A DNA stretch of 64,000 bases from Prolixibacteraceae bacterium (GTDB lineage Bacteria; Bacteroidota; Bacteroidia; Bacteroidales; Prolixibacteraceae). Shown here in pieces: positions 45,237-52,275 of this stretch (the stretch's first letter is position 1; each line of letters begins with the position of its first letter). The position numbers were made by a program, and so were the translations under genes. The stretch covers positions 1 through 64,000 of the forward strand of contig JAIBEZ010000049.1 in NCBI GenBank assembly GCA_019459485.1, read 5' to 3'. The notes below the pieces were generated by a model. It did no database searches. It saw only the letters and a list, made by a program, of their open reading frames with translations, and was not told the DNA's origin.

Positions 45237-45908
45237 ATGTTTGAAATTGACATTCACACCCATCAGGTAAAAAATGAAGTTTCTATCGGGATACTAAATA
45301 TTTTTGCACAGGATTTACCATTTCTGAATGATAAATTATACTATTCCGCAGGACTTCACCCATGGCACATCGGGCTGGTCAATCCGGAAGAATGTCTGGA
45401 GTCAATTGAACTTACAATAAGCAAAGAAAACATGCTTGCTATCGGCGAATGCGGCCTCGACCGATCTATAACAGACGACTTCGCAATACAGGAATTCTAT
45501 TTCAGGAAGCAGATTGAAATTGCTAAAAAAAGCTCTAAACCTCTGATTATTCATTGTGTACGGGCGTTTCCGGAACTAATGAAAATTAAGAAGGAAACAA
45601 AATCAGAAATTCCATGGATTATACATGGTTTTCATGGCAATCAGCAAACAGCTTTGCAACTTATGAAGCACAATTTTTACTTTTCTGTTGGCAAAAAGTT
45701 GCTCTCCGATCAACGCAAAAACGATATTTTGAAACTTCTTCCTGCCGAGCGGCTGTTTTTGGAAACCGATGACAGTAATGGGTCAATCAGCGAGATTTAT
45801 TCACTGGCCGCACAAAAATTAAACATGAGTCACGAAGATTTGGCTGCCATCGTCCTTAAGAATTTCAAACACCTGTTTGGATTTGAAAAGCTGCCAATAT
45901 TGATTTAA
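45237..45908 (+). CDS. TatD-family metal-dependent hydrolase
   Basis: The 223-residue protein has the amidohydrolase-type ligands in the TatD order: DIHTHQV (5-11), the AGLHPWHIG strand (about 39-47) and ECGLD (about 72-76). KPLIIHCVRAF (about 98-108), IHGFHGN and the final FLETDDS (about 173-179) follow. It is shorter than E. coli TatD (260). Family members act as 3'-5' exonucleases or DNA-repair nucleases in the cytosol. It stands alone, divergent from the protease and upstream of the methionine leader. Confidence 0.88.
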   Translation: MFEIDIHTHQVKNEVSIGILNIFAQDLPFLNDKLYYSAGLHPWHIGLVNPEECLESIELTISKENMLAIGECGLDRSITDDFAIQEFYFRKQIEIAKKSSKPLIIHCVRAFPELMKIKKETKSEIPWIIHGFHGNQQTALQLMKHNFYFSVGKKLLSDQRKNDILKLLPAERLFLETDDSNGSISEIYSLAAQKLNMSHEDLAAIVLKNFKHLFGFEKLPILI

Positions 45909-45939
45909 CCTGATTTTTTTTGAACATTTTATAAATAGT

Positions 45940-45970
45940 TTTGTCTATTTGCTAAAACTGTTTATGTTTG
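45940..45970 (+). promoter_or_regulatory. Promoter of the methionine leader and operon
   Basis: TTTG at 45940-45943 and TATGTTTG at 45963-45970 are both exact matches to the Bacteroidota -33/-7 elements with 19 nt between them. A start point near 45976 would place the leader ATG about 20 nt into the RNA. Confidence 0.75.
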
Positions 45971-45996
45971 CACTCAATAAAATCAGGTTATAAAAA

Positions 45997-46092
45997 ATGA
46001 ATTATTCAGCAAAATATAGCTTTTACTGCGTTTTCTCCTCCAGAGCTTGCAATGATTTTATGATGTCTGTCATGCCTATGATAATGCGCTAG
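45997..46092 (+). CDS. Probable methionine-rich leader peptide (31 residues)
   Basis: ATG at 45997, preceded by an A-rich tract, opens a frame of 31 codons to TAG 46090-46092. The peptide ends in MMSVMPMIMR, so five of the last ten residues are Met (residues 22, 23, 26, 28 and 30). It begins about 20 nt after the predicted transcription start, and its stop codon overlaps the 5' arm of a hairpin (46091-46098). Aspartokinase-like, metY and metA genes follow at 46180. This is the layout of an amino-acid leader peptide in which ribosome stalling at Met codons senses charged methionyl-tRNA. No similar peptide could be looked up, and translation is inferred. Confidence 0.65.
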   Translation: MNYSAKYSFYCVFSSRACNDFMMSVMPMIMR

Positions 46093-46130
46093 CCTTCAGG
46101 CGGTGTGATTATGCATGTTGTTTGAAGGCT
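46091..46130 (+). promoter_or_regulatory. Hairpin after the leader stop codon, possible attenuator
   Basis: AGCCTTCA (46091-46098) pairs perfectly with TGAAGGCT (46123-46130), loop 24 nt. A competing smaller hairpin, GCC-ttca-GGC (46092-46101), uses the same 5' arm. A ribosome at the leader stop codon would cover the 5' arm. No T-run follows directly; T-rich DNA comes at about 46156-46168 after a weak AT stem, so control could be by a weak or Rho-dependent terminator or at translation. Confidence 0.5.
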
Positions 46131-46179
46131 TCCATCCGATTAAAGAATTTACCCAAATTTTCATTTTTAAACATTTATC

Positions 46180-47523
46180 ATGTCAAATTGTGTCGTACGA
46201 TTTGGCGGAAACAGCTTATCCGAATTCCATGTATTGGAAGCATTCGCCAATCTTTTGAGTGCATCAGGAAAAAAAGCCGTTGTGGTAGTTTCCGCTATAC
46301 CAGAAATACAACAGAGTATCGAGCAGGGAATCAATCTGTTAATAAACAATGCCGCATCTTCTGCACTAATTATGCAGCAGATCAATGATTCAGTCCAGCA
46401 GAAATTAAATGTATTTCAGGAATCAGAATTGAATGAATTGCTAAAATCAGAATTAAATGCCCTGCATAATCTATTGAAAGGCATTGAATTTACCGGCGAT
46501 TTCTCTGTCTCGCTAAAAGATCAGGTTGTAAGTTTTTCGGAAAGGATTACTGCGGCAGTTTTGCAATTGTTTTTATCGAAGAACCAACTTAAATCAACAA
46601 TTATTTATCCTGAAAATCTGGGACTTATAGTTACCGAAGAATACGGGAATGCAACCATTTTATACAAAGAGTCGCCCAATGTAAAAAACTCATTATCAGA
46701 AGGAATAAATTTAATTCCCGGATCATACGGAATCACCAAAAACGGCAAAATTGCCCGGGTAGGTAAAAGTTCTGCTGATTATACTGCCGCCGGAATTACC
46801 CGTTTGATTGATGCGGATTCGCTGCAACTTTGGGAACTCGACAAAGAATTTAGGACATGTGACTCCGAGATAGTGCCAAATGCACAACTGATTCCGCGCC
46901 TGACCTATTCTGAAGCCTCTGAATTGTCTTATTTCAGTGAGCTTTCAATCCATCCGCGAATTGTTGAACCGTTGATCAGCAGACACATTCCCATTCAGGT
47001 TTTCAGGTTGGTTAATAAAGGTAAGGAATTGACAACGATCATTAATTCTGAATCGTTTGTAACGCACAATGTTGTGAAAAGCGTGGTGCATACCGATGAA
47101 ATTGCAGTATTGAAACTAAATGGCCCGGGTGTTGGTTTTAAACCCGGTATTCTGGCAAAAGTGACAACCGCATTTCATAACTCCGGAATCAATATTCGAT
47201 CTGTAATTACCTCACAGGTAAGTATTAATATCATCCTGAACAAAAACGAAATTACCCGGGCCCGAAAGATTTGCAGAGAATTGCCATTGAGTTCAGTAAG
47301 CGAAATAATCATTGAAGACAAGGTTTCTCTCATTGCGGTAGTTGGTCATGGAATGCAGCAACACCATGGTGTATCGGCCAAACTATTTACAGCCGTTGCC
47401 CAACACAAAATAAACGTACTACTCAGTGGTTCAGGCGCTTCTGATCTGGCAAGCTATTTAATTGTTGACCGGAAAGACACGCAGAAAGCCATCAAAGAGA
47501 TTCATCAGATTTTTTTTGATTAG
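46180..47523 (+). CDS. Aspartokinase family protein with divergent active-site motifs
   Basis: The 447-residue protein has an amino-acid-kinase domain (about 1-270) and two ACT-type regulatory domains: GPGVGFKPGILAKVTTAFHNSGINIRSV (about 308-335) and a second at about 383-447 with GHGMQQHHGVSAKLF. It should phosphorylate aspartate in the Met/Thr/Lys pathway. The first motif, normally KFGGTSV, reads VRFGGNSL, with Arg7 for Lys and Asn11 for Thr. The later GxGGSDYTA motif reads GKSSADYTA. The length fits a monofunctional enzyme without homoserine dehydrogenase. It is the first enzyme gene after the leader and is followed 27 bp later by metY. Confidence 0.8.
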   Translation: MSNCVVRFGGNSLSEFHVLEAFANLLSASGKKAVVVVSAIPEIQQSIEQGINLLINNAASSALIMQQINDSVQQKLNVFQESELNELLKSELNALHNLLKGIEFTGDFSVSLKDQVVSFSERITAAVLQLFLSKNQLKSTIIYPENLGLIVTEEYGNATILYKESPNVKNSLSEGINLIPGSYGITKNGKIARVGKSSADYTAAGITRLIDADSLQLWELDKEFRTCDSEIVPNAQLIPRLTYSEASELSYFSELSIHPRIVEPLISRHIPIQVFRLVNKGKELTTIINSESFVTHNVVKSVVHTDEIAVLKLNGPGVGFKPGILAKVTTAFHNSGINIRSVITSQVSINIILNKNEITRARKICRELPLSSVSEIIIEDKVSLIAVVGHGMQQHHGVSAKLFTAVAQHKINVLLSGSGASDLASYLIVDRKDTQKAIKEIHQIFFD

Positions 47524-47532
47524 ATTTTTTAA

Positions 47533-48855
<1,323 letters not shown>

Positions 48856-48872
48856 TTTTACAAAACTTTTAT

Positions 48873-48901
48873 CGGAATCTCTGCTTCAATCAGAGGTTCC
48901 G
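48873..48901 (+). promoter_or_regulatory. Hairpin between metY and metA
   Basis: An 11-bp stem (48873-48883 with 48891-48901, one G-U pair) has a 7-nt loop and no T-run. It may stabilise or process the mRNA between the two genes rather than terminate it. Confidence 0.55.
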
Positions 48902-48927
48902 GTATTACAAATTAAACTATTGACATT

Positions 48928-49869
48928 ATGCCAATTAACATTCCAGATAAATTGCCGGCAATAGAATTGCTCGAGAAAGAGAATATATTTATCATGGACG
49001 AATCGCGTGCTTCGCAGCAGGATATTCGTCCGTTAAAAATCATCATTGTCAATCTGATGCCGGTCAAAGTTACCACGGAGACCGATCTTATACGTTTGCT
49101 TTCCAATACGCCACTCCAGATAGAAATTGATTTTCTGAGGATGAAAGGGCATAAATCAAAAAACACTTCGGAAGTACACATGAAGGCCTTTTACAAGACT
49201 TTTGATCAGTTGAAATCGCACAATTATGATGGAATGGTTGTCACCGGAGCACCGGTAGAAATGCTTCCTTTTGAGGATGTTACCTATTGGAATGAACTTA
49301 CAGAGATATTTGAATGGTCAACAAAACATGTGACTTCTTCGATGTTTATCTGCTGGGCGGCACAAGCTGGATTGCACCATTTTTACGGCATTCCGAAATA
49401 TTTGCTTCATGAAAAGATGTTTGGAGTATTTAAACACCGCAATTTAAATGACAAATTACCTATTTTTAGGGGATTTGATGATGAATATTATGTGCCCCAT
49501 TCACGTCATACTGAAGTGCTTGAAGCAGACATTGAAAAAGTAAGTGAATTGAAAATAGTTTCAAAGTCTGACGAATCGGGTGTTAACATGGTGATGACTC
49601 ACAATGGCCGTCAATTCTTTATTACCGGGCATTCTGAATATTCGAGATTTACGCTCGACACTGAGTACAAGCGCGATGTGAAGAAAAACCTTCCCATACA
49701 GATACCCGCAAATTATTATCCTGATAATGATCCGAATAAGGAACCTGTTATGCGGTGGAGAGGCCATTCCAACCTGTTGATTTCGAATTGGCTCAACTAT
49801 TACGTCTATCAGGCGACACCCTATAATCTTGACGGGCCAATGCCTTTCAGCCTTGATTTCCAGATTTGA
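48928..49869 (+). CDS. metA: Homoserine O-acetyltransferase, MetA type
   Basis: MetA activates homoserine for sulfur addition. The 313-residue protein has catalytic Cys142 (FICWAAQAG), with His235 and Glu237 in TGHSEYSRF, numbering that coincides with the known enzymes. Residue 111 is Glu (TGAPVEMLPF). In the family this Glu goes with acetyl-CoA use, whereas Gly goes with succinyl-CoA in enterobacteria. That fits the neighbouring MetY, which needs O-acetylhomoserine. The enzyme acts in the cytosol. The next gene starts 53 bp after its stop. Confidence 0.92.
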   Translation: MPINIPDKLPAIELLEKENIFIMDESRASQQDIRPLKIIIVNLMPVKVTTETDLIRLLSNTPLQIEIDFLRMKGHKSKNTSEVHMKAFYKTFDQLKSHNYDGMVVTGAPVEMLPFEDVTYWNELTEIFEWSTKHVTSSMFICWAAQAGLHHFYGIPKYLLHEKMFGVFKHRNLNDKLPIFRGFDDEYYVPHSRHTEVLEADIEKVSELKIVSKSDESGVNMVMTHNGRQFFITGHSEYSRFTLDTEYKRDVKKNLPIQIPANYYPDNDPNKEPVMRWRGHSNLLISNWLNYYVYQATPYNLDGPMPFSLDFQI

Positions 49870-49922
49870 GGTTGAAAATCTCGAAGAAAACAGTTTCTTT
49901 TGAATTCTTAAAACTGAAAAAT

Positions 49923-50330
49923 ATGCTTGGTTATCAATGGGAAGAAAAATACAGTGTTGGAGTTCAGTCGATCGACAATCAACACAAAGAAATCTTCAGG
50001 CTTCTGGACAATCTGTTTAAGGCATTGAAGTCAGGACAGGCAGCACAAACCACCGTCAGGATTATTACTGAACTGGAAAATTACGCTGTGATACATTTTC
50101 ACAAGGAAGAATTTTTCTTCAGGCAATTCAATTATACTGAATCACCCGAACATTTGCAGGAACACAAACAATTCATTGAGAAAGTTGCCGCCATTAAGGC
50201 AGATGCAAAATCAGGAAAATTGGCATCCTCCTTCGAATTAATCAACTTTCTGAAAAATTGGGTAGATCATCATATTCTGGTGGTTGACATGAAATACCGC
50301 GGCTGCTTTCATGAAAATGGACTGCGTTAG
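49923..50330 (+). CDS. Bacteriohemerythrin
   Basis: The ATG at 49923 gives MLGYQWEEKYSVGVQSIDNQH, the standard opening; a TTG at 49866 would overlap the metA stop. The 135-residue four-helix protein keeps all seven di-iron ligands: His21, His58, Glu62, His77, His81, His117 and Asp122. It binds oxygen reversibly at a non-haem di-iron site and may store or sense oxygen. It lies downstream of metA on the same strand, but a functional link to methionine is not obvious. Its stop lies 8 bp from the end of the convergent OmpA gene. Confidence 0.92.
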   Translation: MLGYQWEEKYSVGVQSIDNQHKEIFRLLDNLFKALKSGQAAQTTVRIITELENYAVIHFHKEEFFFRQFNYTESPEHLQEHKQFIEKVAAIKADAKSGKLASSFELINFLKNWVDHHILVVDMKYRGCFHENGLR

Positions 50331-50337
50331 TGCATCA

Positions 50338-52275
50338 TTATTTTCGGGTAATTTTAAATTCGGTTCTGCGGTTCAGGGCTCTGCCTTCAATCGTTTCATT
50401 CGGGCTAATTGGCCGCGAATAACCGTAACCTTTAAATGTCATTCTGTATTTTTCTATTCCCTGATCAACCAGATACGTATATACTTCTTCTGCCCTCGAT
50501 TCTGAAAGTACCCGGTTCAGTTCCTCGCTGCCCACGTTATCAGTATGCCCTTCCAGTTCAATGTAAAGGGATTTATTGGTGATCAGAAAATCAATCAAAC
50601 GTTTAAGTTCAATCTTCGATTCAGGAAGTAATTCATACGAGCCGGTGTTGAAAAATACATTCCGCAGAACAACAGAGCCACCAATTTCTATCTTTTTAAG
50701 TTTAATTTCAAGAATATACGGATCAATAAATTCCATTTTTTCCTTCAATTGAAAGTTCTCCGAGAAAAACAAATATCCATCAGCTGAAACATTGAAAGCA
50801 TATTCCTTTCCAAGCGGCAGGCACATCAGGAACTCGCCCTTTTCCCAGCACGACTCACCATTTATAACTGACTTTGCATTTCCCAGATCAACCAGTTCCA
50901 CCTTTGCACAAATTGGCAGGCCGGAATCGCTGTCGGTAATTTTGCCCTTGATGTACGATACCGGAGTTGGCCGGGCCTCTTTGTGCAATTGAAAAGAATA
51001 AATATCCATCCCCATTGAACCTGGCCTGTCTGATGAATAATAGGCAATTTTACCTGCCGCATCAACCACCAATCCCTGCTCATCTTTATGTGAATTGATT
51101 GGAAATCCAATGTTGTGTGGTTTGATCCAAACTGAATCATTTCTCAAACGACTGTAAAAAATATCATAACCGCCCAATCCCTGCCAGTGATCAGATGCAA
51201 AATATAAAGTTTTACCATCGGAATGGATGAATGGGGACATTTCATTTCCTGGTGTATTGATTGAATCGCCCAGATTGAAGGCATGGCCCCAAACAGGCAT
51301 CCCTACTGCTGAAAAACCCAATAAATTACATTTCCAAATATCCATTCCACCTTTCCCACCTTTCCGGCTACTCACAAAATAAAGTGATTCGCCATTGGCT
51401 GAAATGGAAGGTTGTGATTCCCAAGATGATGTATTGACAGGTTCTCCGGCATTTTGAGGAACAGACCATACCCCACCTTTATTCCTGGAGAAATAGATAT
51501 CGCAACTTCCAATGCCATCCGTTCTGGTACACGCCGTAAAAAATAATAATTTGCCATCAGTTGAAACAGATTGAGCTCCTTCGTTGTAGATTGTATTGAT
51601 AGATGTGAGCGGTTCACTTTCCTGCCACTGATTATTAATTAATTGAGAAGTATGGAAATCTTCCTGGGCCATACTTTTAATTTCTCCATTGGGCGAATTT
51701 GCTCCTACAAGCCTTGTGAAAATGAGTGTTTTACCATCAACTGTAATACTTGGCCAATATTCGTCATCTTCTGAATTGATATTTGGTCCCAGATTAACTG
51801 ATACGAATGGAACTGGCATGTTTAATAGTATGACAGCTCCGGCACATTTTTCAATATTTTGCTTTGCTTTCTCTGCAAATTTTCCTTTTTCCCCATCAAT
51901 TTTAAGGTAATTTTTATACGAATCTACTGCCTTTTGATAAAATCCAGACCGGTAATAGGCATTTCCAAGTGTAAAATACAATTTTGGAAATTTGGTGGTG
52001 TTTATTTGAATGGCAGTCTCCAGCGACTTAATTTGTAAATAAACTGAATCCAATCCCTGATAAATATCTGATTTAAAAAGATATGGTTCCAGAAATTCAG
52101 AATCCAGTTCAATTGCGTCGTCCAGAAGAGAAAGGGATTTGCTCGTCAGGTTATTTTCGTATGCAATTTTGGATTCTTCAAAAAGTCTGACTGCTTTTTT
52201 ATTATCAGTTGAATAACTTTGTCCAAAAGTGTATCCCAAAAATGACATCAGAATAAACGTAAAAAAAGTTCTCAT
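50338..52275 (-). CDS. OmpA-family protein with TPR and PD40 propeller
   Basis: The 645-residue product has a signal peptide (cleavage near TFGQS, residue 19). Helical TPR-like repeats (about 25-140) follow, with TLGNAYYRSGFYQKAVDSYKNYL. A PD40/WD40-like propeller (about 175-425) has PSITVDGKTLIFTR, QPSISANGESLYFVSSRKGGKGGMDIW and SPFIHSDGKTLYFASD. A carboxypeptidase-regulatory-like domain (about 435-520) and an OmpA domain (about 535-645) come last. The OmpA part contains ELEGHTDNVGSEELNRVLSESRAEEV and the final RALNRRTEFKI, which bind peptidoglycan. Such proteins occur in large numbers in Bacteroidota, and some are linked to type IX secretion (PorE-like). The exact role is unknown. Confidence 0.88.
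   Translation of the reverse strand: MRTFFTFILMSFLGYTFGQSYSTDNKKAVRLFEESKIAYENNLTSKSLSLLDDAIELDSEFLEPYLFKSDIYQGLDSVYLQIKSLETAIQINTTKFPKLYFTLGNAYYRSGFYQKAVDSYKNYLKIDGEKGKFAEKAKQNIEKCAGAVILLNMPVPFVSVNLGPNINSEDDEYWPSITVDGKTLIFTRLVGANSPNGEIKSMAQEDFHTSQLINNQWQESEPLTSINTIYNEGAQSVSTDGKLLFFTACTRTDGIGSCDIYFSRNKGGVWSVPQNAGEPVNTSSWESQPSISANGESLYFVSSRKGGKGGMDIWKCNLLGFSAVGMPVWGHAFNLGDSINTPGNEMSPFIHSDGKTLYFASDHWQGLGGYDIFYSRLRNDSVWIKPHNIGFPINSHKDEQGLVVDAAGKIAYYSSDRPGSMGMDIYSFQLHKEARPTPVSYIKGKITDSDSGLPICAKVELVDLGNAKSVINGESCWEKGEFLMCLPLGKEYAFNVSADGYLFFSENFQLKEKMEFIDPYILEIKLKKIEIGGSVVLRNVFFNTGSYELLPESKIELKRLIDFLITNKSLYIELEGHTDNVGSEELNRVLSESRAEEVYTYLVDQGIEKYRMTFKGYGYSRPISPNETIEGRALNRRTEFKITRK

Follow-up and report, generated by a model that had tools for sequence, protein, structure and literature searches.

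A short leader peptide ending in methionine codons, with a single RNA hairpin against its stop, precedes a predicted methionine operon in the 64,000-nucleotide stretch of Prolixibacteraceae DNA analyzed here (the window), and we consider it likely, on comparative sequence evidence, that the two form a methionine-specific, ribosome-mediated attenuator that senses Met-tRNA. In the window's organism this device would act alone; elsewhere in the order (the NCBI taxonomy places Prolixibacteraceae in Marinilabiliales) it would act in series with SAM-I riboswitches. A first-pass annotation of this DNA had proposed that a ribosome at the Met codons senses charged Met-tRNA, and the proposal gains support from the conservation and covariation of the element among relatives and from its recurrence behind SAM-I.

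Leader, hairpin, and genes in the window

The features of the region are listed in Table 1. The promoter-like element reads TTTG (45940-45943) and TATGTTTG (45963-45970) with 19 nt between them, which we take to be an instance of the −33/−7 Bacteroidota promoter consensus; similar boxes are visible by eye, without a count, at the matching place in many relatives. The leader ATG lies 26 nt past TATGTTTG and opens the frame MNYSAKYSFYCVFSSRACNDFMMSVMPMIMR, whose Met codons have their first bases at 46060, 46063, 46072, 46078, and 46084 and whose peptide end, MMSVMPMIMR, is followed by TAG at 46090-46092. On re-reading, the annotated promoter, the distance from it to the ATG, the 31-codon frame, and the tail with its five Met residues all proved right in coordinates and sequence, and Pfam agrees with the assignment of the three genes behind the leader as aspartokinase-like, metY, and metA.

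The hairpin, H1, folds as RNA into 17 bp with a 6-nt loop (−19.3 kcal/mol), the eight pairs at its base being Watson-Crick and many of those above G-U. The stop codon had been placed on the 5' arm of an 8-bp hairpin; the stop does adjoin or enter the hairpin, but the RNA stem has 17 bp and not 8. As a whole, the 223-nt leader folds no better than its shuffles (z 0.57), so the weight of the case lies on conservation and not on energy.

Table 1. Positions of the leader, its hairpin, and the genes behind them in the window
Feature	Position	Strand	Basis or remark
Promoter-like TTTG-19-TATGTTTG	45940..45970	+	Read directly; presumed Bacteroidota −33/−7 type
Leader peptide ORF, 31 codons + TAG	45997..46092	+	Kept in relatives; ATG frame bias 226:24:6
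Met codon cluster, residues 22, 23, 26, 28, 30	46060..46086	+	Proposed control codons
RNA hairpin H1, stop-adjacent	46091..46130; arms 46091-46107 / 46114-46130	+	Fold and covariation
Spacer, C-rich, G-poor, without U-run terminator	46131..46179	+	
First gene: stand-alone aspartokinase carrying ACT domains	46180..47523	+	Pfam AA_kinase 8.2e-26, ACT_9 2.7e-23
metY-like, Cys/Met metabolism PLP enzyme	47551..48855	+	Pfam Cys_Met_Meta_PP 3.3e-127
metA, homoserine O-succinyltransferase family	48928..49869	+	Pfam HTS 1.4e-138

No Rfam family reaches threshold anywhere in the window. At E values up to 10, positions 45880-46300 give two chance-level matches, to a microRNA and to a cyanobacterial sRNA family (E 0.6 and 0.8), and no covariance model of a SAM riboswitch, the known element that the first-pass annotation had wished to see checked for across the leader, matches there. 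The window's genome has no match to SAM-I (RF00162), and 20 same-genus loci have neither SAM-I nor any other known RNA family. The suggestion that the leader stands in place of a SAM riboswitch thus holds for the window's genome; elsewhere in the order, the two occur in series.

Conservation among relatives

An aspartokinase protein match was found in 98 of 101 related genomes (E ≤ 0.001), partly to other aspartokinases. The set of 48 upstream regions, all from genes for the closely matching enzyme, comprises the window with L005-L033 (30 regions) and L045-L062 (18 regions), and it, like the SAM-I set below, was chosen without the leader pattern used in the genome scan described in the last section. 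A leader whose Met-codon end lies directly against a hairpin is present in 45 of the 48; among these, L059 has a single non-initiator Met. L062 is a variant with a Met-rich leader and a looser hairpin, while L053 and L061 have no leader with hairpin before the aspartokinase. In L053, unrelated sequence runs up to an apparent remnant of the 3' arm before the gene, perhaps an insertion. Neither of the two bifunctional thrA genes (L063 and L064) has a Met leader with a hairpin. The window's genome encodes three further aspartokinases (L002-L004), none of which has a Met tail with a hairpin near the gene within the 400 nt upstream. A short ORF ending in FMMSGMK, 306 nt upstream of the L004 gene, seems to be the reverse strand of a neighboring gene.

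Leader statistics were drawn from 44 loci (45 were entered and L033 was missed by the pattern; L053, L061, L062, L063, and L064 were left out). Non-initiator ATG triplets fall in frame 226 times, versus 24 and 6 in the other two frames. Counted in codons from the stop, Met occupies −2 in 44/44 leaders, −4 in 43/44, −6 in 35/44, and −9 in 35/43, and it accounts for 182 of the 524 residues in the last twelve positions versus 44 of 951 earlier ones. At fixed positions, then, these leaders carry the cluster of codons for the pathway end product that characterizes leader-peptide attenuators. Three relatives have lost the stop and kept both the Met codons and the hairpin (L011, 612-675; L015, 2878-2941 on the minus strand; L023, 1396-1459), their frames reading into the hairpin and ending at a TGA in the 3' arm.

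Some of this bears on nascent-peptide arrest, by which the Met-rich tail in the exit tunnel would itself sense Met or SAM or would stall termination, much as TnaC stalls termination with Trp. Tails shared between families (MPLMPMCM or MPLMPMSM in L037, L040, L144, L170, and L227) and an Arg at residue −1 in 36 of 44 leaders are what such a mechanism might leave. The residues between the Mets, in contrast, vary (entropies of 1.96, 2.29, and 2.97 bits at −3, −5, and −7), anywhere from 0 to 8 codons follow the last Met, and the three relatives just named have no stop at that place; we regard arrest as unlikely.

The hairpin keeps its place with respect to the reading frame. In all 30 loci folded, the start of H1 coincides with the stop codon or with the sense codon replacing it (L011, L015, and L023), or lies at most 2 nt away (L033 is within 2 nt of its stop). 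Two-sided changes are seen in 5 of the 17 pairs among 30 sequences (26 distinct). In a larger alignment of 86 sequences (A4), which was fitted to the hairpin model and is thus biased toward that structure, they are seen in 12 of 17 pairs and in 96 cells, versus 29.0 in shuffles, with a covariation score of 0.244 versus 0.130; sliding the partner by 1 to 3 columns lowers the paired cells of these 86 sequences from 86% to 32-50%. By these comparisons, H1 is a predicted stem-loop that is conserved, covaries, and lies at a fixed distance from the leader Met codons. The comparison with relatives that the first-pass annotation had called for finds the frame, the Met cluster, and the hairpin all conserved, with compensatory changes in the arms, and the observation as a whole is stronger than first stated.

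Met-rich leaders behind SAM-I riboswitches

An RF00162 aptamer lies just before the leader in L037, L038, L039, L040, L054, L056, L059, L060, and L062, and because several distant loci show this arrangement, the order was searched for SAM-I alone. Matches were found in 73 of 247 genomes, at 83 places, under the stricter filters applied to all searches of more than 40 genomes (those with our models R1 and R2 included), which lose weak matches. We analyzed 82 of these places, leaving out that of G270, which is the already-read L037. A short ORF (12 to 60 codons, starting within 48 nt) follows at 59, a long gene at 6, and neither at 17. By blastx the six long genes are metH, and they start 12 to 20 nt after the aptamer; the short ORFs start about 12 nt after it, with 49 of the 59 at 9 to 16 nt.

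These short ORFs are coded for methionine toward their ends. ATG occurs in frame 118 times versus 18 and 12 (binomial P = 6e-31, a value that, like the others for this set, overstates independence because some loci are close relatives) and is the most frame-bound of the codons seen at least 20 times. Met makes up 107 of 706 of the last 12 residues (15.2%) versus 11 of 1,057 before them (1.0%). At least two Met in the last 14 residues, which we call a Met-rich end, are found in 37 of the 59, compared with a mean of 1.7 and a maximum of 6 in 200 rounds of shuffled bodies, and the 37 span 25 of the 45 families having SAM-I matches, a count that is free of the overstatement. Behind them lie metY-like genes (16), aspartokinase (7), metH (7), and genes outside our small reference set (7). 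The 22 ORFs that are not Met-rich probably include chance ORFs. Outside the order, the 30 best of more than 100 listed SAM-I sites have 5 short ORFs, none of them Met-rich.

The design of Met leader and predicted hairpin is thus one that recurs behind SAM-I with unrelated hairpin sequences. This recurrence weighs against the view that RNA structure is all that matters, the ATGs being a motif of an aptamer or a protein site and the frame incidental. Because Met has a single codon, selection on the amino acid cannot be proven by synonymous change, which leaves room for such a view, as does the lower stem AGCCTTC/GAAGGC, almost invariant across the window's leader family; the frame bias in both sets (226:24:6 and 118:18:12) and the unrelated hairpins make it very improbable in our judgment.

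Two observations concern individual sites. At the SAM-I site of G223 (L193), a short ORF before a metY-like gene ends in SISSCCCFCCC, perhaps a Cys-coded version. In L038 (MITMTTITRTSISML) and L059 (MITIYYITRTNTSML), the order is SAM-I, leader, and aspartokinase, and the leaders have Thr, Ile, and Ser codons with a last Met, perhaps multivalent.

Spacing of the stem and proposed mechanism

When stalled, a ribosome shields roughly 12 nt, counted from the first base of the codon in its A site. In the 37 Met-rich leaders behind SAM-I, measured from the first base of the last Met codon, the stem score is raised at 0 to 11 nt (z 2.7 to 5.7) and falls beyond that to z values of 1.4, 1.0, and then below 1. 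A rise is also seen when these leaders are anchored on the stop (z up to 5.0 at +3), because most stops follow the last Met at 3 to 9 nt. With Met and stop at least 12 nt apart (15 leaders), the Met-anchored rise over 0 to 11 nt reaches z 4.2 and the stop-anchored one at most 1.8, with one stop-anchored high point at +16 (z 3.3). No stem rise is found in the 22 short ORFs that are not Met-rich or at an anchor 40 nt past the stop. The mean best stem score within 15 nt is 18.8 in the 37, versus 15.7 shuffled (sd 0.5), and since only 14 (38%) singly score above the 90th percentile of the shuffles made from them, the hairpin in the SAM-I set is to be read as a group signal. The spacing of these predicted stems fits the ribosome footprint, and because the hairpin sequences of the SAM-I set are unrelated, we take it as the best evidence for the mechanism.

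That mechanism would run as follows. When Met-tRNA is scarce, the ribosome would halt with its A site at one of the last Met codons; its leading edge would cover the 5' arm, the hairpin would be blocked, and the operon would be expressed. When methionine is plentiful, the ribosome would reach the stop and depart, the hairpin would form, and expression would drop. At loci with both elements, SAM probably controls initiation of the leader, since the leader starts about 12 nt past the SAM-I aptamer, where metH starts at a few other places, and charged Met-tRNA probably controls its completion.

Output of the hairpin

The plainest output would be that of a trp-type attenuator in which the hairpin serves as an ordinary intrinsic terminator; both its position and its polarity would suit that role. 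No terminator-like site is found on the plus strand of the window from 45800 to 50400, in agreement with the earlier remark that no strong U-run terminator follows the hairpin, and among 44 loci, T runs in the 10 nt past the hairpin reach a length of 4 at most. Behind SAM-I, a hairpin with a T run is present within 130 nt at 0 of 37 Met-rich sites, compared with 9 of 39 other sites within the order (Fisher's test, 0.002) and 20 of 30 sites outside it, the latter being the best-scoring among more than 100 listed. The terminator test used is rough and missed L204 with its T8 run. When the test is extended up to the gene, 1 of 30 Met-rich sites is positive. T runs of at least 6 do occur within 130 nt at 6 of the 37, each lacking a fitting hairpin. 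An ordinary terminator is accordingly about as improbable to us as the structure-only view, if not slightly more so, and since the Met-rich sites lack terminators that are present elsewhere, the leader seems to occupy the terminator's place.

The pairing tests point the same way for the other half of the classical scheme. The first-pass annotation had spoken of alternative RNA hairpins; we found a single hairpin and no set of alternatives. The freed half of the hairpin pairs with the spacer less than shuffles do, which argues against a classical antiterminator, and pairing of the leader ORF with the spacer is likewise weaker than in shuffles. The leader ORF pairs slightly more strongly with the 3' arm (−12.0 versus −11.0 kcal/mol, sd 0.38), and the RNA that a stalled ribosome would leave uncovered is still somewhat more stable when folded than its mononucleotide shuffles (−30.0 versus −27.5 kcal/mol). 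A pairing of a mid-leader GGG with a CCC of the spacer, noted by eye in same-genus relatives, is unsupported by the pairing test and was dropped. The classical trp-type combination of an exclusive antiterminator and a U-run terminator was not found.

Rho loading sites are C-rich and G-poor. In the window's leader family, C makes up 21.2% of the spacer and G 5.7%; the sequence before 37 long ORFs of the window, a set that may include spurious ones, has 14.5% C and 13.9% G. C exceeds G in the spacers of 41 of 44 loci of the family, and the SAM-I set shows this bias only weakly (17 of 29). Our leading guess, a tentative one to which we give somewhat less than an even chance, is that in the window's leader family the hairpin acts via Rho-dependent termination; translation initiation and mRNA decay share the remaining probability.

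For the order as a whole, we somewhat favor a history in which SAM-I exchanged its terminator for a Met-coded leader, giving a two-input switch with a stop-adjacent hairpin and no intrinsic termination, and in which Prolixibacteraceae such as the window's organism lost the riboswitch and kept the peptide alone. The putatively Cys-coded L193 would suggest that the slot can be recoded.

Relation to known systems

Transcription attenuation by leader peptides is known for the trp, his, leu, and thr operons. The element described here resembles those attenuators in having a short leader ORF with codons of the regulated amino acid beside a hairpin and before biosynthetic genes; it differs in its Met codons, in the single hairpin that begins at the stop or last Met, and in that neither a U-run terminator nor an antiterminator was found. 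Methionine is an awkward choice for such control because every protein starts with it.

Several published systems share features with this one. The Bacteroid-trp RNA motif (RF01692) is likewise a cis-regulatory RNA of Bacteroidetes, trp-related by name (PMC2864571), but it gives no match on the window's leader or in its genome. A Xanthomonas SAM-I riboswitch is described as also sensing uncharged initiator tRNA, so that inputs from SAM and from Met-tRNA charging meet on one met transcript with no intrinsic terminator; there the tRNA binds the RNA directly, whereas the sensor proposed here is a ribosome translating Met codons (PMC7270179). In Bacillota, T-box and SAM riboswitches are reported in tandem, likewise combining a sensor of tRNA charging with a sensor of SAM, but the former is T-box RNA where we propose a leader peptide; the text of that paper has no word beginning with "leader" or "Bacteroid" (PMC12452182). 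In the transcriptome of Bacteroides thetaiotaomicron, some 5' UTRs are reported to contain short ORFs that resemble leader peptides, in a passage naming BT_4401 and no met gene (PMC7366714). In Sinorhizobium meliloti, a SAM-II riboswitch is reported upstream of metA, two AUGs and a terminator lying in between (PMC9373788). Among the papers listed by searches of the open-licence literature, we found no description of a methionine leader peptide, or of a SAM riboswitch combined with one, in Bacteroidota, which does not prove that none exists.

If the reading given here is true, a widespread Met leader would add methionine to the list of leader-peptide amino acids, would constitute a Gram-negative counterpart to the T-box and SAM pairing of Bacillota, and would be a case of a riboswitch with a translated peptide as its expression platform.

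Distribution and minor observations

A pattern scan of named genomes returned 77 stretches with leader and hairpin, from records titled Draconibacterium, Mariniphaga, Maribellus, Sunxiuqinia, Mangrovibacterium, Prolixibacter, Tangfeifania, Gaoshiqia, Prolixibacteraceae, Bacteroidota, and a few others. Because the pattern contains the two last Met codons, the TAG, and both arm ends, these are given in all 77 loci. Aspartokinase (71) and/or metY (62) lies behind 75 of them, and the remaining two end too early to judge. Such constancy of the genes in cis, together with leaders whose length from the first in-frame ATG ranges from 9 to 42 codons and whose sequence varies outside the Met tail, makes it scarcely credible that the conserved small ORF encodes a functional micropeptide acting in trans.

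Model R1 has a single match in the window's genome, the leader locus itself. Under the filters mentioned above, model R2 finds matches at E 0.01 in 13 of the 393 genomes searched in the order, several of them by chance, and across the class it matches 1 of 395 genomes beyond the window's own, inside a long ORF and so taken as chance. L042, L043, and L044, together with L143, L145, L146, and L147, were judged chance matches and dropped; L142, which has a leader-like end and a hairpin with no recognized gene behind, was left uncounted.

Three of the loci come from records titled Chitinophaga pinensis (L089), Odoribacter sp. (L107), and Chlorobiota (L113), assembly titles that may be wrong; the MetY of L089 is 97% identical to that of the window. 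Directly 3' of metA in the window lies a hemerythrin-like ORF (49866-50330), present in 4 of the 77 loci (L089, L098, L114, and L131). One subclade, with L065, L075-L078, and loci like them, has a further short hairpin, for example GCTC..GAGC, visible by eye about 11 nt past the first.
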